From: Dioscorea cayenensis subsp. rotundata
Lineage: Eukaryota; Streptophyta; Magnoliopsida; Dioscoreales; Dioscoreaceae
Assembly (NCBI RefSeq): GCF_009730915.1
Contig: NC_052474.1
Span: 6,297,501-6,361,500, forward strand
Direction: 5' to 3'
DNA: 64,000 nt
Shown here: positions 12,605 to 57,629 of the stretch, in pieces
How positions within the stretch are numbered: the stretch's first letter is position 1
Layout of the letters: every line of letters begins with the position of its first letter
The notes under the pieces: generated by a model
What the model was told of the DNA's origin: nothing
What the model saw: only the letters and a program-made list of their open reading frames with translations
Database searches by the model: none
Made by a program: the position numbers and the translations under genes

Positions 12605-12824
12605 GGGTAAATCACACAAATAGTCACTAAACTATAGGGCATTTTTGTTTTGGTCACTAAACTTTAAAAAATTCTATTTGGGTCACTAAATTTTAGTTTT
12701 GCTTCCAATCAAGTCACTAGGGAGAACGCCAAGCGATGTCACATGCTTTTTGCCACGTCACTAAAGTTCAGTGACAAAAATAGAAATAACTCAATAGTTT
12801 AATGACTATTTGTGTGGTTTATCC
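12605..12824 (+). mobile_element. MITE, family B copy 1
   Basis: The ends are inverted copies of ggrtaaaycacacaaatagtca-like sequence. Inside are the words 'tcactaaactttaaaaaatt', 'gcaaaactaaa' (inverted) and 'catgctttttgccac', also found reverse-complemented in 13561-13829. Confidence 0.8.
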
Positions 12825-13560
12825 TTGATTTTTTTTCCAAGTTTTGTTGTAACTATAGATTCAATTTTCTTTGTAAAGATGTATTTGTAAATGTATGGAA
12901 CAATATATACATTTAATAAATCAATTGTTGAATGTTAAAAAATGACATTCACAAAACACAATCATACAAATAGAATTTTTGTGAAGTAGTTACTTGTATT
13001 GATAACTAAAAATAATTATATTCAAATCCCAAGTTGATGCACAAAATTGGCAGACATGCCTGTCATCCAACAACTTGATAAAAACCCAGGTTCATATGTA
13101 ATGGTCTGTTAAAGCTAAATAAAATAAAAAAACAGTTGACAAGTCTAATTCCAAAAACTAAGCCTACTGAAGACTTCCACAACGTGTGCAACCTCCTCAA
13201 TAACAGTACTTTTGTTAATGTGCACCCTTGGAGAGTTGGATCTTTGCATTTCTATCAGATTGAGACTCTTTCCTTTTTCTTTGGGCCATACTTCCAACTT
13301 GTGGTAAGGCCCTCATATACCTAAAAGGTACTTGTCTCCCTTGTTGTTACCTACATGCATTTTCAAAACCAACTCCAGATGCAAAACTTTGTTGTGTGTT
13401 TGTACCTTGAGAAGAACCCTATACAATAATTCAAAATAACATGAACCATCATAGCAGAAAAGTATTGTGTTTATAACCTGAGCAAGATGAAAACATGTAT
13501 CTTGATTTACAACAAGAAGAAACAAGGTGTTCTACTAAAAATTGGCCCAACTACTCTTGA

Positions 13561-13829
13561 TCCAACCACACACATAGTCACTATACTATAGAGTTATTCC
13601 TATTTTGGTCACTGAACTACAAAAAATTCTATGTAGGTCATTCAACTTTAGTGATGTGGCAAAAAGCATGTGACATGGCTTGTCACGTCCAGATGTTGTT
13701 AATGGAGTTCTCGCTAGTAACTTGATTGTAAGCAAAACTAAACTTTAGTGACCCAAATAGAATTTTTGAAAGTTCAATAATCAAAACAGGAATACCCCTA
13801 TAGTTTAGTGACTATTTGTGTGGTTTACC
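13561..13829 (-). mobile_element. MITE, family B copy 2
   Basis: Reverse-complement relative of 12605-12824. It starts with tccaaccacacacatagtca, ends with gactatttgtgtggttta and shares the central 'gtggcaaaaagcatgtgaca' block. The two copies are about 0.75 kb apart in inverted orientation. Confidence 0.8.
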
Positions 13830-13989
13830 CCAAACTATAAGCATACCTCATTTAGTGTAAAGGAACACTTAAATACAATTAAATATTTTTTTGAATTATT
13901 TTAAAGTAAATTCTCTTGATTCAAATTATAAGTCTATTTTAATATTATGTGTAAATATATATAAAGAAAACAAACTGGTGGTAATGGGA

Positions 13990-16137: not shown

Positions 16138-16597
16138 CTCTCTATTTCTTTTTCTATAAATATTTTAAAACAAATATAGATGTTTGTATTTATCATAATA
16201 ATTATTTTGGTTTACCGAAACATTCACATTGTTTAAACTGTGAATATGTAGATTTATGTACATTTTTATTAATTCTATTAAGATATTTTTTGTGGATGTT
16301 TTATTTAGATTGTATTTTTATTTTTAAATATTTTAGTATATGTTTTTCTTTGTGTCTTGGTTTTATGAGACAATAATAAGATAAGAAGAGAAAGTAGTTT
16401 TGTCTACCCAGGTTTCATTATATTAAAAAACATCATGTTGGTGGTCCTCGACATGTTTGGTTGATAAAAGGACATTTTGTCGTGAAGTTAATAAACAAGT
16501 CAGTTTTTTACATGTGTTAAATATGTCCAATTCAATTTTAAAGTCTAAAATTATAAAAATAATAAAAAAAAAAGTTAGATAGACATTTATGCTATGT
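16138..16597 (+). repeat. Direct repeat copy 1 (pairs with 17218-17668)
   Basis: It shares long blocks with 17218-17668, including 'tggtggtcctcgacatgttt', 'ggttgataaaaggacatttt' and 'gtccaattcaattttaaagt'. Ends lack TG...CA, so it does not look like an LTR pair. Confidence 0.8.
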
Positions 16598-17217
16598 TTG
16601 GATTGAGGGCCGGCGAAGAAAGCAAAGTAAAGCGAGGGTTTTGGAGGGTCAGAGTCGGTCTTTCCCTCGTTTGGATTGATATTTTTAATTTAACGAAAGG
16701 AAAGAAAGAGTTAACTTTGACCCTCCGAAACCCTCCAAAACCCCCTTTTCTTGGCCCACGATTTGGGGTGCCGGGTGAAGGAGAACCTCGTAAAGATTTT
16801 AAAATTTTTTAAAACACCTTATTACCCTTAATTTTTTTTAAATTAATTACACAACACCACTTCATAAGTTTTTTCTTTCACTTTTTGCAATCTAATTTTA
16901 TTTTAATCAAGTATTCACATGACACCGATCACAAATATTTGTTTTTTATGTATTTTTTTTTGTTTGCTTATTTTTATTTGTTAGTTTATGTTGTGTTATT
17001 TATTTCTCAATTCATCCTTAGAATAATTTATGTTAATAGAATTCTATTTTTTTAATATTTATTAAAAAAAATCTACCTAGAGTGTAAATTTATTTGAGAT
17101 ATTCATAATGCATTTATTTAAAAAGAAATAAGTAATTTTTTATTTAATAATAAAGGTATAATTGGTAAATCATATCATTATATATCATTTCCTTTCATTA
17201 AATTTATTCGAGAACTC
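16598..17217. other. Spacer between direct repeats
   Basis: The left part (16598-16800) is GC-richer than its surroundings and contains an imperfect inverted pair ('gagggttttggagggtc' near 16635 against 'gaccctccgaaaccctcc' near 16718). It may be a small inserted element. The rest is AT-rich. Confidence 0.45.
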
Positions 17218-17668
17218 TCATTTCTTTCCCTCTATAAAATTTTAGTTTACCAAAACATTCACATTGTGTAAACTCTCAATATGTAGATTTTAGTATTTAT
17301 CATAATAATTATTTTAGTATATATTTTTCTTTTGTGTCTTGGTTTGGTTGTATTGTATGGTCATGATCATAGTCGTGTTTATTCTTTTTATTTCTTGAAT
17401 GAATTGTGATTTATTCACTTAAAAAAAAAATATTCAATGAATATACGAGACAATAATGAGATAAGAAGAGAAAGTGATTTTGCCCATTCAGGTTTTCATT
17501 ATATTAAAAGACATTATGTTGGTGGTCCTCGACATGTTTGGTTGATAAAAGGACATTTTATCGTGAAGTAAATAAACAAGTCAATTTTTTAACCGTGTTA
17601 AGTATGTCCAATTCAATTTTAAAGTCTAAAACTATATATATATATATATATATATAAAAGCTAGATAG
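17218..17668 (+). repeat. Direct repeat copy 2 (pairs with 16138-16597)
   Basis: Same blocks as copy 1 with several indels: an extra segment around 17345-17445 and a (TA)n tract at 17634-17656. The offset between copies is about 1.07 kb. Confidence 0.8.
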
Positions 17669-18124
17669 ACATTTATATGCAAATAATTCCTTCATTTATT
17701 TAATAAAAAATTATATAGCTTTTTATTATATACAAGTTAAAAAGTTGCGATATCATGTTAAAAACATTGGCCTTGTTTAATTAAACAATTGTGAATTTGT
17801 TAATGAAATTTTTGTGTTTCTCAAGGATTTTTGTGAGAAAAAGTACCAGCCATACGTTTTCAGGCCATTCACTTGATAACGCCAAATAAATTAATGAATA
17901 ATACACGTGAATAAGAACAGGATTGTGAGTGCATGCAATAATTGGGACGTGCTCATATTTGAGTCCACCAACCCAATAAAACATTAAAACCACAAACCCT
18001 GCAGCAAATCAACGGTTGACGCGTGGTTCTGTTTGGATATATCATCCGCACGCTGGGTTTTCACCCCCTCGTATTGTTTTACCCTTTCAGTGGATTTTTT
18101 TATATTGTCATGTTGATGTGTGCT

Positions 18125-46065: not shown

Positions 46066-49000
46066 CCCTCCCTTGATTGAAGCTTATAGACTCCTAGCTG
46101 AGCTCTAATTGCATTATGATTTTCAATAGGTAGTAATTTAGTGAAGAGATTTGCCAATTGATCCTCTGTAGAGCAGTGTTGTAATGAAATTGCTCCATCA
46201 ACAATGAAGCCCCGGATGAAATGATACATAATATCGATGTGTTTACTTCTACCGTGAAGAGTAGGATTTTTGAAAACATATACAGTTAATTGGTTATCAC
46301 ACCATACTATGGTAGGATGACTGATATTAATTGCACAATCTGCTAACATCCTCCTAGGCCACACTATATATCTGACATGCAGCTAGATGAGGTAGGGGCA
46401 ATGTACTTCACTTCAGTTGTTGATAGAGCAACTATGTCTTGCTTCTTGGACCCCCAATGTAATTGCACTGGATCCAAACCTAAACACCATTCCTAAGATG
46501 CTCTTTTAATCAGTCAATGAACCACCCCAATCTCTATCCGTAAAAGCTTCTAAACTGCCTTCTAAACATTATGAGAACCATAAGCATTACTCAACTATTC
46601 CTGCTAGATATCTTACTATATGTTTAACTGCAGAAAAAAATGGTGTTTGTTTGTATTGAACATAAACCTTGATAGCAGGTTAACAGCTAGCAGATGTCGG
46701 GTTTGGTGTGTGTTACATAGGGTAATTTACCCATCAAACTTCTGTATATCTTTGTATCTACCTTTTTTGGGCTCTCCTCAAAATACAGTTTCTCATTCAC
46801 ACACATTGGTGTTGCAACAGCTTTACAGTGCTTCATATTTATCTATGCAATGAGATCCTTCACATACTTTTTCTGCGTAATAAATATTCCACCAGTTATC
46901 TGCTTCACTTCCAAGCTTAGGAAGTACTTCGTTAGCCAAAGATCAAACATATCAAACGAATTCATCATGTCTAACCTGAACTCTTCAATCAATTTCAGTG
47001 ATGAGCTTGTATAGATAATGTCATCCACATAGACACCTTTCTACCATGAGTTTGTTAGGATCGGGTGAGATGAAGTGTATAAATGTTCTCACAAAACACT
47101 CAGGTTCACTGATAATTGAACTCTAAATATAAGAACAGAATGAGAGGAAGAGATGTGTAGAAGAATAGATAGCAGAGATGCTATGAAATTCCTTACATTC
47201 ACTTCATTAATTCATTCAAGCATTTAAACAAACAACTGATATGCGTGCCAGTGAAGCAGCATAGTTCATACAACCAGAACAATTTAAACATAAACTACAA
47301 ACATACAGTGAAAGCAAATTCTAAATAAAACACAACAATAAGATAACTCTGGGATGATGTGAATCCCAATTCAGTGCTGAATACATTGGTCTTCGGCAGC
47401 AGTGGAGAGTGAGCTGGAGGCTGGAAGCAAGTGCAGGGACCTGGGGAGAATCCAGCAATGGCTCCAGTGATATGTCTGATCAAACAGCCTTAACAGAGTT
47501 TTCTTGTACATAGCATGATCATTTTCACTTCTTATAAATCCATGCTGTCGAAAATGCATATCTATTCTCATATGCCAGGCTCTAGGGGTTTGTTTTACTC
47601 CTTATAGAGCCTTTCTTCAGTTTGTACAGTATGTTCTCCTTTCCTTCCACAACATAACCCTCTGGTTGCTCGACAAAGATCTCCTCTTGTATCTTCCCAT
47701 TTAAGAATGTTGATTTAATGTCAAAGTGAAATGCTTGCTAGTTTGCTTGAGCTACGAGTGCAAGAAGAATTCTAATAGTTTCTAATCTTGCTACCGGTAA
47801 AACACCTCAACATAATCCACTCCATATTGCTGTGTATATCCCCTAGCCACCAACCTGGCTTTGTGTTTCTGGATTTGACCATCAGCCTGTATATCCCCTA
47901 CAACTCTTTTGTCAGGCGGTAAATCAGTCAATTGGTAAGTGTTGTTACTCTGAATTGCTGAAAGTTCTACATCCATAGCATCCTTCCACTCTTTATACTT
48001 CACTACCTCATTGAAATTCAATTGGTATATAACATTGAGTGCAAACGAGCATGTGTTGTAGATGTCTGCGAGAGACTTTATCTTCTTGAGAGATGAACCA
48101 TCTGTGCATGCTACTCTTGGTCTTGACAAATCAGTTGCTTCGCTGGAGTTTGAAGAAGATGTGGCTCTTGCTGATTCGTTAGATATGATAGTGTCATTGG
48201 TGTTTGAGATTGGCCCTGTTCATAAGAAGGCTCAAAGAAGTTAATAGAGTGCTTATCCTCTGGTGTTGTATTACTGGTTTGAGATTGGCTCTTGCTTAAA
48301 GAAGTTAATAGGAGCACCTTTAATTATTTGCATTGGTTTTTGATTCTTCAATTGTGATGGAAGGCTCTCTTCCATCAGTGCCATGCCAGTCCCAGTGAGC
48401 ATCCTCATGAAACACCATATCTCTACTTACAATCACTTTGCAAGTAATTGGATTACAGAGTTTGTAGGCCTTAGTTTATGAGCAATAACCTACAAATAAG
48501 CACTTTTCATACTTCTCATTCAGCTTTAGATGCTTTTTCATAAGGATCATACCAAAAACAACCCATCCAAATAATCTAAGGTGACTTACTGAAGACTTCA
48601 TTCCACCCTATACCTCATAAGGCATCCTATTATGCACTTCTTGTGTTGGAGATCAATTGATTAAATCTATTAATGTTGAGATTGCCTCTGTCCAGAAACT
48701 GTTTGGTAAGCCTCCACTCTTAAGCAAGCTGCGGGTCATTTCAACGATGGTTCTATTTTTTCTTCTATTACACCATTCTGTTGAGGAGTGTAACGAGCTA
48801 TTAATTCTCTCCTGATGCCAAGCTCCTCACAATAACTATGGAATTCATGTGACATGGACTCTTCACTAGGATTATTTCACAGAGCTTCGAGCATCCTTCT
48901 TGTCAGCCTTTTGACTAAAGCTTGAAACCTCTGAAAACATTCAAACGTGTTTGCCTTGCTCTTGATGAAGTGTACCCAACACATCCTGCTGAAATTATCG

Positions 49001-49436
49001 ACAAACAAGAGAAAATACTTACTGCCACTTAGTGATTCTATGCTCATAGGTCCGCACACATTGGCATGGATGAGCTCAAGACATAAAGTTTTCCTCCAAG
49101 CCTTCATTATGGGAAACGGTCTCCTTGACTACTTGGCAACCACATAATCTTCACATTGAGTCACCTGCTTCAGAATTCGTAGCCCATGTACCAATCCATT
49201 CTCTCTAAGTAGTCTCAAACTCCTATAATTCAAGTAACCAAAACACATGGCCCATAGATCTGACAAGCTCTGATTGTTCATAGTTACATTAGCATTCCCT
49301 ATACTTGAGATATCCACGAGAAACATGTTGTTTTTAGTCCGTGGATAGAGATAACTTGCATTCCCGTTAGATCATCTCTGATGACATAATTGTCTTTCTC
49401 AAACAACACTGAGCAACCCTTAGTGAGCAATTAACC
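46053..49436 (-). pseudogene. copia pol remnant: integrase, RT, RNase H
   Basis: Pieces in order on the minus strand: GAG-pre-integrase (CFGYLNYRSLRLL, 49129-49326); integrase core (ELIHANVCGPMSIESLSG and FVDNFSRMCWVHF, 48877-49107); RT N-terminal part (EWKDAMDVELSAIQSNNTYQL and KARLVARGYTQQYGVDY, 47791-48129); YVDDIIYTSSS (46985-47028); RNase H with IVWCDNQLTVYVFKNPTLHG and SKHIDI (46053-46364). Several stops and frame changes break it. The first catalytic Asp of integrase (HxDVCGPM in relatives) reads Asn. It cannot make a working polyprotein. Confidence 0.88.
47053..47495. mobile_element. Solo LTR (443 bp) inside the copia RT, TSD GAGTT
   Basis: It starts TGTTAGG and ends CCTTAACA on the plus strand, with GAGTT on both sides (47048-47052 and 47496-47500). 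It sits between the RT segments ENDHAMYKKT and YVDDIIY; removing it and one GAGTT joins them with almost no loss. No internal genes. Confidence 0.88.
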
Positions 49437-51469
49437 TGTTGGGGAGCCTAGGGTATACAACACACAGCGGACAAAACCTGGCAGTCAACACTATTCACCC
49501 CATTTGGATCAAATGACAAACAAATATACAATTCTCATTCAAAAACCAATGTACATCTTTTTTCAGGAAGAATCCTTGTGGGAAAACTCCTCACTACAAA
49601 GAGAAACCACAAGGACCTAGAGTGTTCAATTGGTATGGGAAGTGCTACAGTGTTCTTCTTCTCCCTTAAGCTACAACCTAGCTGAATCCGGCTAATCAAT
49701 GCATACAAACATACAATAAGCCTCTCTTGAGCAAATAAGAACACACAACAAGATGATAAACAACTTGCCCTAGCAACCTTCCCACCTTCTTGCAACCGCT
49801 AGCTTAGGTTTACAAGAATGAAGAAGAAGAATACAAATATACCTTCACTTCTTCTTCTTTGAGCTCACAAGCTCGGATCCGAAGCTCTAGGATGTCTTCA
49901 AGGCTTCCCCTTTGATGGATGTTGAAGCCCTAGCCCGTAGCCCTCTCCCCCTTTCTTTTTCTCTCAAGAAACCTCAAAGAATGCACTATTTATTGAAGAG
50001 AGAATGAAGAGTTAAGTATCTCATTCGGGATGCTACAGTAACCCATACGGTCTCCATGCGGGCCGCATGGCGCCCACATGAAATTCCCAGAACTAGAAAT
50101 TCTCTCACGGCTGCTATAGTACCACTGCTATAATACATCTGCTACAGTAACTTTACTACAGTACTGTGGGATCGAAAATACGCATCTGGCATCATGAAAA
50201 GACACCAGACGATATATCGAAGCACAAATATCGTATTTGTTTTGTGTGGGTTCTTTCATTCCTAATAGAGGCAAGCCTCTATTATTAATTACCCTAGATT
50301 AGAAATCTTAGGAACCTCCGATTAAGGGCAAAAAGTACAAGTAAGAGCAAGAAGATTTGTGAATTTTAAATCCTGTTATTTTATTATATAAACATATTTA
50401 TTACATCATTTATATATATATATTTTTATCATCGCCATGTCACTGTGCCTTTGTCATCTGCGTTGCTGCCCGCATTGCTTCGCTTTTTGCAATTTTTGTT
50501 GCCATTTTAAAATAAACAAGTCACTGCTTGATTGTGTCTTTCATACTATATTGCATGTCTTGTTGTCACCCTCTTGGGAATATGTCTCATTGTTGTTTTG
50601 AGACAAATTTAGCCATGACATTGAGATGAGCACCCTTTATCGTTGCTTTTGAAATTAGCGAGTCTTATTTCTCCTGCTATTCATTTGCTTACATATCATT
50701 TCTAGATATATATTTTTAATTTATTTATTTTTAATCCACACTTATCATAGTGGGTTATATTTATTTATTTATTTTTTGAGAGGGCCGTGAGCATATAACA
50801 TGCATGTGTTCATGCTTACATATAATAATTTTCTTTTAAAATATCCCCATGTATATCCCTCCAAGGTGGGCCGATTTCTTCAGTTTTTTTATTATCATTT
50901 TTTTATGTCATGAGACCATAGCATGCTTTTTTCTTTATTATTGTTATTATTATTGGTGTATATCATTTATTCTTACAAAAACATGAACATGCATTTTTTT
51001 TAATGTATGCATAAGCCACGTGAAAATATTTTAACCCCATACTCATCATTTAAATGGTGGGTCCCACTTGAGTATATGCATGCATACCTACTCGTTCATT
51101 TTTTTTATATGCATGTTTCATTTTTTCCTTATCTCATGCTAGCATAAAAAATTTGTTTTATGTCATTCCCATATGCATGGTAATCCTGACTTCTAAATGT
51201 CTGAGTATGCATGCATTATATATATATATATATATTTTTAAAAAGATGGGCCCACCTCTTTAAGTCATGATCACGTGCATCCTTTTTAAAAAAAATTTCA
51301 TATTTTTATTATGCGCGTATGTATGCATGAATTTATTTATTTATTTATTTATTTTTTTGCATGCATGACTTATTTAAGGTTTCTTATTCTTTTTCTTCGA
51401 TCACATTTAATCACTGTAATGAAACACTTCATTCTTTTTTTTTTTTTATTATTATTTATTTGTTTGCAG

Positions 51470-52090
51470 GATGTTATGCACAGTAATCTGAAGAAATGGC
51501 ATGATCCTTCTGTTTCTTGCTTTGAGATATACAGCTTTTCTTTTGAGGATGAATAGTGTAGAAATGGATGATCGTTTCCCGGTGTATGTGCTAAGATTCC
51601 AGCACATAAAAGTTCTCATAGGCATGACCTTAGTATCTCATATCGTGCTTGAAGGGTGGGTGGACCAACATAAGCCTTGATATCTGCCCAGTCAATAAAA
51701 GCAATATCTATTGCTGCAGTTATATTTGATAATAACATTTGGCCATGATTCTGGTCTGTCCATCTGAGTAAACAAAGCATTAACAACCCGAATTGAGTCT
51801 GAAGATTCTGAACCTTTAGCAACCAATTTTCCACTTTTCGGAAAAACCATTTTGCTGAACGAGGAATGGGCAATAACCTCTACCGATTGGCACATAGAAT
51901 ATCTTGACTTAAAATAAAATGTATATAGAGCTTCTGAGCCAATGCTTTACATAAAGAAGTCTTCCCAATTCCAGGAGGCCCATGCAATAGGATGATCCGA
52001 TTCCGATAAACAAGGCAAGGATCTACACCTCGCTCAATAAACAAAAAGAGCACTAGCAAAGATACTGCAGAGAAGTTACTCGCTTGAAAC
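51470..52090 (-). pseudogene. PCH2/TRIP13 AAA+ ATPase fragment captured in the LTR-like element
   Basis: On the minus strand, in shifting frames, one reads a GVDP segment, [20 protein letters not shown] (Walker A), [83 protein letters not shown], then ELLCAGILAHTPGNDH and SSSKEKLYISK. This is the pachytene-checkpoint ATPase PCH2/TRIP13. Between LVAK and the SSDSIRVV segment about 35 residues that hold Walker B are missing. A stop follows RSCL, and two-base shifts occur near 51895-51910. No intron is visible over about 620 bases. It is not functional. Confidence 0.85.
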
Positions 52091-52659
52091 TAGTTTCATA
52101 AATTAAACCCTCTCACATTCCATTAAATTCTCTAGCGGGGTAAAACCCTACTCATTAAAGCTAGAAAGCATATCATTTCCATTTATTTTTTTCACCGTGA
52201 TCCACTTCACTAAGCATAACGTAACTTTTATGATTATCAATAGACTCATCTCAGTCGTCGCATGCAGGAAAGCTTCATCTGCGAGGAAGGACCCTCAGAG
52301 ATAGCTTAAACTCCACTTTTCCAAAGATTCTTTCCACTCGCGATGAGAACATTCTCAGCAGACCTCAACTGAAACCAAGACCTTGTCATCAGGAGCAGGG
52401 ATCAGGGAAGGCGAGGAGTCTAGGGAAGTAATGACCGCAAAGAACAATGAAGAACGCGAGATGATTTAAAATTAAGGATGGAGACGGTTGATAGGCAAAG
52501 ATCAGAAGCACCACGAGCAGGGACTTGGATGAGAGAGAAACTAGAAGCAAATGGTCTCTCTCTCTGCTGGTAGTAATGCCTCTTCTATCTGGGTCCTCCC
52601 TGGTGCCTTCTGGGGACCCAGCGTCGGCTTCCTCAGTAATTCTTTTTCGGCGGCGATGG

Positions 52660-52915
52660 CGGCAGTGGCGTCAATGGCGGACACAGCAGCAGATAGCAGC
52701 GACAACAAGCGGTAGCGCGTGACATGCTTTAGCGGCATTATTTCGACCATCAAGCATGTCTCGGTGATGAATGGCGACAGACGGCGGCGTGCGGCAAGGC
52801 GTCGATAGCGGACACAACAACGGATAGCAGCGACAACAAGCGGCAGCAGTGACATGCTTGGCGGCATTATTTCAGCCATCAAGCATGTCTTGGTGATGAA
52901 TGGCAGCAACGGCGA
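52660..52915. repeat. Tandem pair, about 130-bp unit, GC-rich
   Basis: Two units share 'gcggacacarcarc', 'gatagcagcgacaacaagcg', 'gtgacatgctt', 'gcggcattatttc' and 'catcaagcatgtct'. They give the impression of GC-rich coding sequence, but the frames are not conserved between units. Confidence 0.75.
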
Positions 52916-53194
52916 CGTGCAGTGGCGGCAGCAAAAAATCTTTTTTATGTATATATATGTATATAAGAATACGGGAGAGGAAGAGAAATATACCTCTTCT
53001 TTTCGTTCTCTCTTCCTTCTTCCTTTTTTATTTTTCTCACTCTTTTTTTTTTCTCCCCCTCAATCTCTCTTCAGCTTCCTCCTCCCTTTTAAAAGCTTTG
53101 ACCACCACTTTTTTTTTATCCTCATCCCGTGAGATCTCTCCCCTTTTTATCCATCCCGTGAAATCACAGCGAATAATATATATATATTTTTTTT

Positions 53195-53720
53195 AAATTT
53201 CAAATTTTAAAACTTTTTTTTTTAATTTCAAATTTTTAATAAATTTTTTTCCTTTTTATATTATTATTATTTATTTTATTTTATCTTATTTTATTATTTT
53301 ATTTTTTTCTTTTTATTTTTTTATTTTTTTATTTATATTTATTTATTTATATATTTTTTATTTATATTTTATTTATATTATTTATTCATTTTTTTATTTC
53401 TTTTATTATTTTTATTATTATTATTTTTATTATTATTATTTTTATCTATATATATATATATATTTTAAATTTACTTTATCCCAACTTCTGATTGTGATTT
53501 TTTTTTATTTATTTATTTTATTTATTATATATTTATTTATTACTTTTTCTAATTTTATTTCAAATTTTAAATTAAATTTTTTTTTTAATTTATTTTTCGA
53601 ATTTATTATTATTATTATTATTATTTAATTATATATTGATTTATTTTATTTATTTTATTTATTATTATTTTTTTAAAAAAAAAATTTATTTTATTTTTAT
53701 TATTATTCACTTAACTCAAT
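53195..53720. repeat. T/A low-complexity tract (TTTATT-rich)
   Basis: More than 500 bases of TTTATTTTATTATT-like sequence with almost no C or G. Confidence 0.9.
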
Positions 53721-53779
53721 TTGCCTTTGGGATGTGTGTTCAAGCACTTCAAGATTTGTACTTTTCTCAAATCGCCTCA

Positions 53780-53915
53780 AGATCCGCTCTCGTAGGGCAA
53801 TCTTGTAAATTTTGCATTCATGCCCTCGAGATATGTTCCTCAGGGCAATTTTGTAATTTTGCATTTATGCCTCGTGATATGTTCTCAAGGGCAATTTTGT
53901 AATTTGCATTTTGTA
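53780..53915. repeat. Three tandem units of about 45-50 bp
   Basis: Each unit contains 'gatatgttcctcagggcaat' or a close variant followed by 'ttgtaattttgcatt'. They lie between the low-complexity tract and the outer end of the LTR-like element. Confidence 0.8.
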
Positions 53916-54134
53916 TTTAACTTGGAATTTTGCATTCTAGTCCAAAAACAATCCAATAATCAATTAAGATTAAGATTATGACATTTAAATTTTTAATTCT
54001 AAATATATCTCATGATTAGGATATATTAGTAAATCTAATTTGGCTCCATTCAGGGACATTGAGTTTTATTAGGACATGCGTTATATTATTTATATATAAA
54101 CAAGTACCTGGCAGAAAGGAAAATTTTCAGTGAG

Positions 54135-54173
54135 CCTCACGGTCTCCATGCGGGCCGCATGGAGCCCGTGAGG
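54135..54173. repeat. Near-perfect 39-bp GC-rich palindrome
   Basis: Arms cctcacggtctccatgcgg and ccgcatggagcccgtgagg form a hairpin broken by one mismatch pair. The inner part 'ctccatgcgggccgcatgg' occurs again at 50052-50070 near the other end of the same element. Confidence 0.85.
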
Positions 54174-54284
54174 TTTACAGCCATTCTCTGCATCCCCGTC
54201 GCTACAGTAATTCCTGCACAAACTCAATATTGAGTTATACATTTATCTTAGAGCTTCAAACAGGGCTGGACACCTTACATAACC

Positions 54285-55170
54285 AACGCAAAGGAAAGTA
54301 TGTGCAAGGCTAGGGATATATTGAACTCCATGCAATTGCTTGACTCTTTCATCCAACGCGTTTACTACCGCAGTGCCAACTCCTTCCACCTTTGTCTCAT
54401 TCTCGTCAACCAGTTATTCACCTTTTGAGATTCATTCAGCTTGCTGAATAGTTTCCTTCCCTCTGACATATGGCTTGAGTATCCACTATCCACTAGCAGT
54501 ATGGAGTTTGCTTCAGTCCTAGGATCACTACTTGTCATGAAGTTATTGTTTGCTTCCCTTTCCTTAGCCACATGGGTGACCCCTTTCTTTGGATGCTTAT
54601 CTTTTGCCCAACACTCTGCTTTGATATGGCAGAACCTCTTGCAGTTGAAGCACTGTACATTGCTTATGTATTCGCTACTTCTATCCCATTCTCTGCTTCT
54701 CCCTTTTCCCCAAGAGAATCCTCTTCCATGACCTCTAGAATTACTCCAAGTTTCAATAGTGCTTGAGCTTCCTTTCTCATTGGCATTCAGGACTGCAGCT
54801 TCACTATTCACATGCATAGCTTTCTCAGCTGTCCTCTCTACTGCACGATTTACCCTCTTCTCATGCTCCTACAAGGAACCACTGAGCTCGTCCAATAAGA
54901 GCTTAATGATATCTCTGGATTCCTCAATGGTGATTGCTACATAGTCAAATTTCGGCGTAAGCTCCAAAGGACTTTAGAGATAACTTCATCTTTAGAAAGT
55001 TGGTATCCGAGTCCTTTGATCTAGTTGACGATGGTGACCACACTTGAGAAATACCTTGTACTGACTCCACCCGAACTATTCCATGGTACTAGTTCTTTAT
55101 CATCTTCCATGTCTCATGTGTTGTTGTTGCATCGGCAATGCATCGAGAATGGGTTCATTATCCTATGTAT
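54285..55170 (-). pseudogene. copia gag and protease remnant
   Basis: The gag zinc knuckle CFNCKRFCHIKAEC (CX2CX4HX4C) and the protease motif VDSGYSSHM are readable at 54365-54817. Upstream, in broken frames, come a DATTTHETWKMIKN-like segment (about 55075-55135) and other gag pieces to about 55170. The start of gag and the 5' LTR are not found. Confidence 0.85.
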
Positions 55171-55516: not shown

Positions 55517-57629
55517 TCAGTTATTTCGGCATTCACCTTTAGATGTTTTCCTTGCCCAATCCTCTCCGTGATGCAATACCGCCATGCGGCATGACTGTTC
55601 TTTTAGCAATTTAAACAGCGAAGAACGCTTCCGAGGAATAAAACCATAATCATCGACATAAGTATCCATGCCTTTAACCATTAATTGCCAAACAAGAGCT
55701 CCTGCACCAGCTCCATTTTCCTGTGCAGACTTGTACACAATGTCGAATATCGTCTTGTAAAGCTTATCCCTTTGAGTGTTATGGAAGTCCTTGCTGTTGC
55801 ATGAAAGTCCAAATTCCGTGAGCAGTACTGGTTTTTTCAGTATCTTTTCGCCATCTTCGATGTGAGAATTCACCCACTTGAAGATGTATCTCAGTTGATT
55901 ATCAAGTTCTGATACTTCTAACCTGTACAAGAGAATGCAATGATTTCTAGATTCATTATTAAATTTTTTACTTAATTTGATGCTTACCATTGATCAGGGT
56001 ATACATGGACAGATGCGAAATCAATGCCAGAGGCATTCGTGTTGCTAATAAAGTCAGTTCCTACATTACCATAGTACTCGCTGGGATTGACATTCCTTTT
56101 TTCCGGAGGGCTTTTTGGACCATAGAACCCCTCTATACCGATAGTTACTAAATGGTTCTTGTCAATTGATTTTACATATGCTGACATTTCTTCAATCCAT
56201 TTCTGCATTGCTCAAAAATTAAGTATCACAAAGCAGATCAAAAGAATGAGAAGATACTGAAGAACTAGTTGAACAAAGCTCAAGAATTGGTATAAAAAAT
56301 CCTATTGTAAAATTCGATAGCCTCTCAGGTTATAAAAAGCAAAAACTGCAACCTTCTTAATTCAATTTCCCTTGAAAGCTTCACATTCTCATGAAAAAAA
56401 CACTTAATTCGATCTCGACAAAATCACCAAATTTTACAAAGGAAATCTCTAATTCATTAATGATCGCAAGACGACAAAACCGACATACATACTTGGAGAG
56501 TGTCACCCCATGGATCGGTCTCGATAGCTTCTCAGGTTATATAAAAAGCAAAAAATTGCAACCTTCTTGATTCAATTTCCCTTGAAAGCTTCACATTCTT
56601 ATGATAAAACACTTAGTTCGATCTCGACAAAATCACTAAATTTTACGACAAAATCACTAAATTTTACGAAGAAAATCTCTAATTCACTAATGATCGCAAG
56701 ACGACAAAACCGGCATACATACTTGGAGAGTGTCACCTGATGGATCGGTGACGCAACGTGGTTCATTCATCAGCTCCCATGCAAAGATAGTAGGATCATC
56801 TCGATATTCAATCCCGGTTAAGTGATTTTCCCTAGTCAGTATAGCCTGCATTACACACAAAATTTTTCGGTTCTTATTCAATCAAATCAAGTGATTCTTG
56901 CGTGACAAAACATCAAGAATTACCTTCAAGTAATCCTTGAAATAACTCCGAATAGCAGGATCAAAGAAGAAGGAATCCTCGGAGGAATTCAAGCTCAAAC
57001 CTTCTTCCCATGCCCATTGAACATACTGAGGCTTCCCACCATATGCTTCCAAATTGTTCACCAAACTAAGGAGCAGGCGAATACCGTGTTTTCGAGCTTC
57101 CATAATAACATAATCCAATCCCTACACAGAACAAAAGAGTCAAGCTATATAGTTCTACACAGATTGCTATTCTTATGTTTCTGGATCATCAAACATACAG
57201 TTGAAATACATAGTTGAATTAGATACATTAATAGTAACAAGTATGAAAGAAAGATGAGATCTGATGAAGTAATACCTGAAAAACCTGCTCGTCGAAGTTG
57301 CCGAGAGAAACTTGCAGAGCATTGTAAGTTCCATCATTGAATGCCCAAGTTCTGCAAACAGTAAGACCCATCTTGGAAGCAAGATAGAAAATGTCCCTGA
57401 CCTTTTGCCTAGTGGATTTTTCCACAGCATGATCCATTAGCCAGTAAGAGTTCCATCCATTAACAAAGAATGGCTTACCATCCAACATGAACTTAGTCTC
57501 ATTCCTCCCCACAAAACTCATCATATTTTGCTCAACAGGTTGGTAACCAAAGTCCCCATAAGTAATGTATATGAATATCACACAAGATGCAAGGCCAAGA
57601 AAAGGAAACAAGACCCTATTCCCTAACAT
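55517..57629 (-). CDS. Mannan endo-1,4-beta-mannosidase, GH5 (subfamily 7), 5 exons
   Basis: The enzyme cuts beta-1,4-mannan backbones in the cell wall. Exons (minus strand): 57629-57276, 57121-56924, 56845-56723, 56202-55988 and 55922-55517. All junctions are GT-AG and in phase; about 431 residues, normal for plant MANs. A hydrophobic N-terminal segment (residues 5-24, [18 protein letters not shown]) is a signal peptide or anchor. Then come [26 protein letters not shown], the [12 protein letters not shown] strand, WELMNEPRC with the acid/base Glu (about 212) and LLTEFG with the nucleophile Glu (about 333), plus HVYPDQW. The active-site residues I can check are present. Intron 3 carries a duplication that copies the end of exon 3 with its splice donor. 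The closest Arabidopsis MAN was not determined. Confidence 0.95.
56314..56749 (-). repeat. Tandem duplication across the exon 3 / intron 3 boundary of the mannanase
   Basis: Copy A 56314-56520 and copy B 56521-56749 match from 'tcgatagc' to 'tggatcggt'. Copy B includes the last ~27 bases of exon 3 and the real donor at 56722-56721; copy A therefore carries a decoy of the exon end (acttggagagtgtcacc) plus the donor sequence in the intron. Copy B also has a 20-base internal doubling ('aaaatcactaaattttacga'). Confidence 0.9.

Follow-up and report, generated by a model that had tools for sequence, protein, structure and literature searches.

The window analysed here, a stretch of 64,000 nucleotides from Dioscorea cayenensis subsp. 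rotundata (C4:6297501-6361500), carries on its minus strand a solo long terminal repeat (LTR) that contains an intronless, partial copy of the host gene for the meiotic checkpoint ATPase PCH2. We consider it likely, at a probability of roughly three in four, that a gag-bearing LTR retrotransposon family captured host mRNA in its LTR through template switching, and probably did so repeatedly. The genome searched comprises 584,211,761 bases in 2249 contigs.

Organization of the window

A copia-like gag-pol region on the minus strand is split in two by an inserted TG..CA unit with a 5-bp duplication, GGTTA. The gag/protease part, the upstream half of the interrupted element, is found at 54285..54868 (Pol_BBD, E 8.7e-4) and the integrase/reverse transcriptase part, its downstream half, at 47791..49431 (RVT_2, E 1.4e-5; rve, E 7.6e-3); all three scores lie below the curated cut-offs. 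Once joined, the flanks of the insertion presumably read copia-like on either side, with the frame resuming across the site. The inserted unit (49437..54279) is solo-LTR-like, measures about 900 bp without its own insert, and is bordered by GGTTA at 54280..54284 on the 5′ side and at 49432..49436 on the 3′ side. This unit and everything described inside it are likewise on the minus strand.

Self-comparison of 49437-54279 revealed no LTR pair belonging to the unit, only a 40-nt match near its ends, because a second unit, recognized by comparison with genomic copies, sits inside it. The inner unit is the solo LTR carrying the PCH2 cDNA: 3938 bp at 50165..54102, reading TGTTTATA...GATCCCACA with TG..CA ends (terminal CCCACA), boundaries common to other genomic copies, and GTACT on either side (54103..54107, 5′ side; 50160..50164, 3′ side). 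Treating 49437-54279 as one solo LTR was dropped; the other copies place the inner ends at 50165 and 54102, and the outer ends are not common to the six other PCH2 copies. The first-pass annotation had put the PCH2 fragment inside an LTR-like unit, which is right as to the LTR, while the single unit is really two, nested, with the outer one the target of the PCH2 LTR. A GC-rich repeat block precedes the PCH2 segment (52780..53120, including the stretch just upstream) and is present at all seven PCH2 copies and at 33 further places.

Elsewhere in the window, self-comparison reveals more repeats at 56314-56749, 16364-17676 and 12605-13830, direct and inverted, with 78-87% identity. Frames at 55517-56211 resemble what we take to be a plant glycoside hydrolase (mannanase-like); the one frame of this region scanned against Pfam gave no match.

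The PCH2 segment and its parent gene

Alignment to the host coding sequence (CDS) and PDB matches define a PCH2 cDNA segment at 51474..52425, minus strand, which is intronless, carries six internal deletions and runs from CDS nt 71 to about 1201. Beyond this point the homology passes into LTR sequence, the aligner extending it nominally to 1216. Identity to the host CDS is 837 of 918 aligned nucleotides, separate open pieces match solved TRIP13 at E 2.4e-12, 3.4e-08 and 1e-07, and the Walker A region, GPPGIGKT, is read at 51956..51981. The annotated homology to PCH2/TRIP13 on this strand was thus borne out, as was the match upstream of Walker A, which in fact reaches about 335 nt further upstream than had been noted. 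The statement that the fragment continues to near the C-terminus was wrong for the window copy, in which host exon 14 (CDS 1226-1365) is absent; the sister copies L010 and L015 extend to CDS 1359 and 1345. The fragment is oriented sense relative to the LTR. With stops, frameshifts and a gap at Walker B, it has no open frame containing both Walker A and Walker B, as a functional AAA+ ATPase would require; no PCH2 protein can come from it, and it looks like a neutral passenger, probably methylated.

The host carries one intron-bearing PCH2 gene (L009; C10:9098799-9104362) with 14 exons and a CDS of 1365 nt, the exons having been read by eye from their borders, of which all inner ones are GT-AG. 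With 671 nt of the segment as query, a DNA search of the genome gave 14 matches, counts that are lower bounds (11 of 11 candidates scored). Seven are short and all fall within the host gene; the other seven, among them the window's own, are long and are LTR copies. Their alignment to the host CDS confirms that introns are absent, at every junction in the scope of this check; the exon 9/10 junction falls inside the Walker B gap and so outside it. Host exon 13 (L009 about 9283) has one base more than L010 and the window copy. The extra base disrupts the model's frame close to the end and probably reflects an error of assembly.

The Walker B gap is clean, as had been reported: 35 codons are absent between ..SGKLVAK and GSESSD, that is, CDS 751-855, 105 nt and in frame, with GCTAAA joined to GGTTCA (host CDS 750 to 856) at 51804..51824. 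Exon 9 comprises CDS 742-811 and exon 10 CDS 812-882, so that the gap begins 9 nt into exon 9, stops 44 nt into exon 10 and leaves the last 27 nt of the latter in place. Neither end is a splice site (no GT-AG). It is not the only gap, as the annotation had implied; six deletions, of 26, 8, 24, 34, 105 and 11 nt, are common to all seven copies. The 105-nt gap is a single block in six of the seven, the aligner splitting that of L014 into 37 + 62 nt, and the other five are split or shifted by the aligner in L014 and L015 and, at individual deletions, in the window copy and L012 too. Where the blocks are unsplit, microhomology amounts to 0-2 nt, with none at the 105-nt deletion. Jumps of a reverse transcriptase would be expected to give deletions of this kind; DNA-level loss in the founder is another possible origin.

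PCH2-bearing LTRs in the genome

The suggestion that the fragment had spread in copies is supported by the seven LTR copies recovered (the window copy and L010-L015). Two are solo LTRs with TG..CA ends and a 5-bp duplication on both sides, namely the window copy (GTACT) and L012 (CTCCC). Three others adjoin primer-site-like, gag or polypurine-like sequence. L010 and L013 continue past the LTR end into sequence containing GTGGGGAC, which we take to be like a primer site. In L013 a gag follows the LTR (Retrotrans_gag, E 5.3e-10), the only copy after which one was seen. GGAAGGGGGCATT, presumably a polypurine-like tract, precedes L011, and an integrase-like frame scoring only 0.0068 lies about 11 kb upstream of that copy. 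The flank ACGGA is found to the left of L013 and L014 and to the right of L011, and L010 8193-9953 represents the same target without the insert, an empty site; GTGTA occurs at L010 (left) and L015 (right).

No intact element with two near-identical LTRs was seen among the seven copies, whose sequence is in part interrupted by N: stretches of 1000 N fall within L014 and L015, and at L010 and L013 they are found at a distance of 0.3-2.6 kb. L011 (C1:22744338-22748248) and L014 (C1:22779145-22782301) point in opposite directions, separated by about 31 kb, and share the ACGGA flank of L013; assembly may have split or inverted what was a single element.

Divergence and a recombinant junction

Divergence was counted in five copies (the window copy and L010-L013) over the 825 CDS sites before the exon 13 problem; L014 and L015, with their many small indels, were excluded. 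All five have 51 differences from the host in common, spread over the three codon positions as 15/16/20 (p 0.66); with the host base as the ancestral state, 29 of these 51 are C>T or G>A. Another 47 sites differ in a single one of the five copies. The cDNA thus drifted without coding constraint, probably methylated, before the copies separated.

Two subtypes can be recognized. The window copy and L011-L014 show 86-93% mutual identity over the alignment, L010 and L015 are 93% identical, and identity between the subtypes is 70-76%. The PCH2 segment alone is far more alike (window copy vs L010, 97%). Two PCH2-less stretches, L039 and L052, match the window LTR at 88.3% and 91.5% from LTR position 2618 to its end, which corresponds to the A-rich 3′ part at 50165..51468, and have no PCH2 before that position. 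The switch from PCH2 to this other LTR sequence lies at 51469..51487, where the window reads ATTACTGTGCATAACATCC; L010 reads ATTACTGTGCATCAAGC (..TACTGTGCATCAAGC), L039/L052 read GATACTGTGCATAACATCC (..TACTGTGCATAACATCC) and host PCH2 reads CTACTGCTTCAAGC. Comparison of the L039/L052, L010 and window reads locates the switch in a common 10-mer, TACTGTGCAT, and the window subtype is a recombinant, at this 10-mer, of a PCH2-bearing LTR and another LTR. A poly(A) tail directly after the window fragment was considered and dropped; the same stretch occurs in L039 and L052, which are PCH2-less there.

The share of A on this strand is 43-50% in the nine 3′-part LTR stretches measured. A-runs in captured pieces have also expanded to long A-rich stretches, at L010 5540-5620 (PCH2) and at 300-420 of oriented L048. 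Such expansion suggests slippage, which may be the source of the A-rich LTR parts.

Other host genes at the same position

The family is large. A query with the final 266 bp of the LTR yielded 963 first-look candidates; all 40 of those scored matched, and 30 of these matches became loci. With the GC-rich block as query there were 227 candidates, of which 40 were scored; these gave 75 matches, spread over the seven PCH2 copies and 33 further places, 40 in all. L036 holds the C-terminus of TCP-1 gamma (E 6.2e-25), sense, at the same place in the LTR as PCH2, between the GC-rich block and the LTR end. The order there is a 5′ part matching the LTR from about position 192 (the first 190 nt of the LTR are without a match), the GC-rich block, TCP-1 gamma, a stretch that follows the stop codon and resembles the 3′ untranslated region of that gene, an A-rich part and the LTR end. 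L037 likewise carries the end of TCP-1 gamma, and an unnamed membrane-protein-like segment occupies the same interval in L059 and L052/L081.

The 700-800 nt past the GC-rich block were sampled at 21 of the 33 non-PCH2 places, chosen by strand and space and not by content; a place was named by a Pfam match above the cut-off or by close identity to a place so named. Seven of the 21 could be named. Three contain an ADP/ATP carrier (L068-L070; Mito_carr in all three, structure match E 1.1e-35), three Exo70 (L067, L084 and L083; Exo70_C at 7.7e-11 and 5.6e-12, with L083 named through 91-97% identity) and one Pescadillo (L078; Pescadillo_N at 2.5e-41). At C17 and C2141, which both have the GC-rich block, Pescadillo is uninterrupted; at C8, C3 (two places), C5, C20, C18 and C9 it is broken into pieces of 30-62 residues, a contrast to be expected if spliced copies were made from loci with introns. 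The base-by-base comparison of intron loss was confined to PCH2. The structure match of the carrier starts at chain residue 170 and the sequence just before it is presumably N-terminal carrier sequence, so this piece, too, seems to be without a large middle part.

The remaining 14 sampled places yielded no named host gene by Pfam or close identity. Four of them (L065, L066, L075 and L079) have one segment in common, as do L076 and L085; L081 has the L059 segment, with no Pfam match; L071 (MULE, 5e-4, below cut-off) and L074 (DUF4219, 0.013) are transposon-like at weak scores; and the others are L072, L073, L077, L080 and L082. After the GC-rich block, L076 and L085 contain what we take to be ubiquitin-like words; they were not counted as polyubiquitin, two L085 pieces having no Pfam match. 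L082 is PPR-like and also lacks a Pfam match. The PPR piece of L048 (Pfam 2.2e-6, below the curated cut-off, two stops read through) was left uncounted as cargo, no GC-rich block or LTR start being seen there. Among the longest sense frames of the first ten places, 8/10 gave some match at 0.05 and 4/10 one above the curated Pfam cut-off; the longest antisense frames of the same places gave no Pfam match (0/10).

Both LTR ends were seen for PCH2 copies only. With 40 of the 963 ends scored, a scored LTR end lies no more than 6 kb downstream at 4 of the 33 non-PCH2 places and at two of the 21 sampled (L066 and L081, neither with named cargo). For the carrier, Exo70 and Pescadillo places, whose own LTR ends were not seen, the LTR frame is thus inferred from the GC-rich block and from nothing else. 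A leader of about 250 nt is common to PCH2, L074 and L080 right up to the cargo edge, despite their different cargo.

Origin of the captured sequences

Intronless copies in LTRs, alongside an intron-bearing host gene, support the earlier proposal that a retroelement captured a spliced transcript, and the copies show what marks a template-switching retrocopy: element sequence joined to a copy from which the introns of the parent gene are gone. In the course of events we propose, reverse transcriptase in a virus-like particle would leave the element RNA for a co-packaged PCH2 mRNA and then return, all while copying the LTR, the switches occurring at short matches and perhaps aided by A-runs. Both LTRs would thereby inherit the PCH2 cargo. 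Further jumps of the enzyme would produce the internal deletions, including the Walker B gap; later switching between packaged element RNAs would set the PCH2 segment on another LTR background, and LTR-LTR recombination would leave the solo LTR of the window. The same slot probably received pieces of other host genes as well. A switch of template within the particle would account for the sense direction, the splicing, the 5′- and 3′-LTR contexts, the mosaic leaders and 3′ halves, and the internal deletions. At the 5′ edge of PCH2 the LTR reads ..CATTACTTGCC, the host ..GGGTGCCCC and the copy ..CATTACTTCCC, a match of at most about 4 nt with PCH2-less relatives. Microsimilarity is thus 10 nt at the 3′ junction of the window type, possibly about 4 nt at the 5′ edge and 0-2 nt at the internal deletions. 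The shortness of the matches at the 5′ edge and the deletions counts against the switch into PCH2 mRNA, which is presumed.

An alternative in which a LINE made a PCH2 processed pseudogene that landed in an LTR and was then multiplied by the LTR element appears unlikely to us. It would suit L010, where PCH2 ends around the stop codon and is followed by an A-rich stretch, and also the loss of the first 70 nt of the CDS. Against this, A-rich sequence is ordinary for LTRs of the family, pieces of other host genes are also sense and follow the same GC-rich block, the leader common to PCH2, L074 and L080 runs to the cargo edge, and, short of a dedicated search, no private duplication flanking the PCH2 cDNA was noticed. 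The LINE route is less likely than template switching because it would need many landings, in the same direction, at one address in one family. Capture of an exon-skipped PCH2 transcript, which the first-pass annotation had favoured, is scarcely credible. The 105-nt gap is in frame and all other checked junctions are spliced; yet its ends lie inside exons 9 and 10 and not at their borders, the five other deletions likewise remove no whole exon, and exon 6, itself 105 nt long, is present in the copies. Exon skipping is refuted by the exon map, unless the exon borders differed at the time of capture. Hardly more plausible is transduplication of the PCH2 locus at the DNA level by a Pack-MULE or Helitron-like element. 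In plants the capture of gene fragments by such DNA elements is common (PMC13317346); the copies here have no introns, which capture by a Pack-type DNA transposon would have kept, and they show LTR ends, 5-bp duplications and, after one copy, gag.

Nor do assembly artefacts offer more than a very improbable source of the copies or chimeric LTRs. The 1000-N runs that cut L014 and L015, the many small indels of these two, and the runs near L010 and L013 would be in keeping with such an origin, but two solo LTRs, the window copy and L012, occupy different sites, each with its own matching 5-bp duplication, L012 has no N in the 10 kb examined, and the copies can be told apart by private differences. 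A further proposal, close to the antisense or small RNAs against PCH2 that the first-pass annotation had thought possible, is that small RNAs from silenced PCH2 LTRs might dampen host PCH2 in trans, which, on the sequence, we regard as improbable. Of the host CDS, 170 of 1345 21-mers and 119 of 1342 24-mers recur without mismatch in one or more of the seven copies, and the longest stretch of perfect identity is 47 nt. In a moth, silencing RNAs of Masc retrocopies target the parent gene, as reported in PMC9674220; the cargo, however, is sense to the LTR and drifting neutrally.

Returning to template switching, we lean, if by a narrow margin, towards the family LTR being a reusable cDNA trap, into which spliced host mRNAs were repeatedly inserted, in sense, between the GC-rich block and the A-rich stretch. 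An element would then hold its cargo in both LTRs, and cargoes would pass between lineages by template switching. As one possible route, T-rich minus-strand DNA copied from the A-rich part of the LTR could pair with the poly(A) or the A-runs of host mRNAs in the particle.

Relation to known systems

It is established that LTR elements can capture genes through template switching (PMC13317346, PMC5408686, PMC9674220, PMC3726574 and PMC1950507). LTR-mediated retroposition by this means was described by Tan et al. 2016, as cited in PMC5408686 and PMC9674220; as there, host mRNA is joined to element RNA to give intronless partial copies with short matches at the switches. In the present family the copy is situated within the LTR itself, and one and the same block is followed by several different host genes. 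Maize Bs1 is comparable in that a single LTR element bears pieces of three host genes; those segments, as described in PMC13317346, are within one element, whereas here the cargo is in the LTR and varies among family members. The 10-nt junction recalls BARE-2 and abnormal template switching, in which an LTR is altered by switching between two packaged RNAs (PMC13317346 and PMC1950507). The donor there is another retrotransposon, whereas here host mRNAs would be donors too. A published survey likewise finds many host genes within LTR retrotransposons, counting genes in full-length elements; its available text describes no slot inside LTRs. Diamondback moth PxyMasc retrocopies are also several LTR-linked partial cDNA copies of one host gene, and they make silencing RNAs against the parent gene (PMC9674220), which for the PCH2 copies would be conjecture.

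Among the titles and abstract openings listed by word searches of an open-access subset of the literature, none described a recurrent host-gene slot inside LTRs, and none of the papers listed for PCH2 placed it in an LTR element. Provisionally, then, we regard such a slot as new. If the interpretation is correct, gene capture by an LTR element could be a repeated process with a fixed address, besides happening now and then by accident at random sites. Template switching would have left a natural record in the family, whose cargo, leader and 3′ half change partners, and this record would reveal where in the LTR switching occurs. The family would show, too, by what path exons of host genes, that of a meiotic checkpoint ATPase among them, come to lie in repeats, and trans-silencing of the parent genes thereby becomes directly open to test. 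An LTR acting as a cDNA trap would be the retroelement counterpart of Pack-MULEs.
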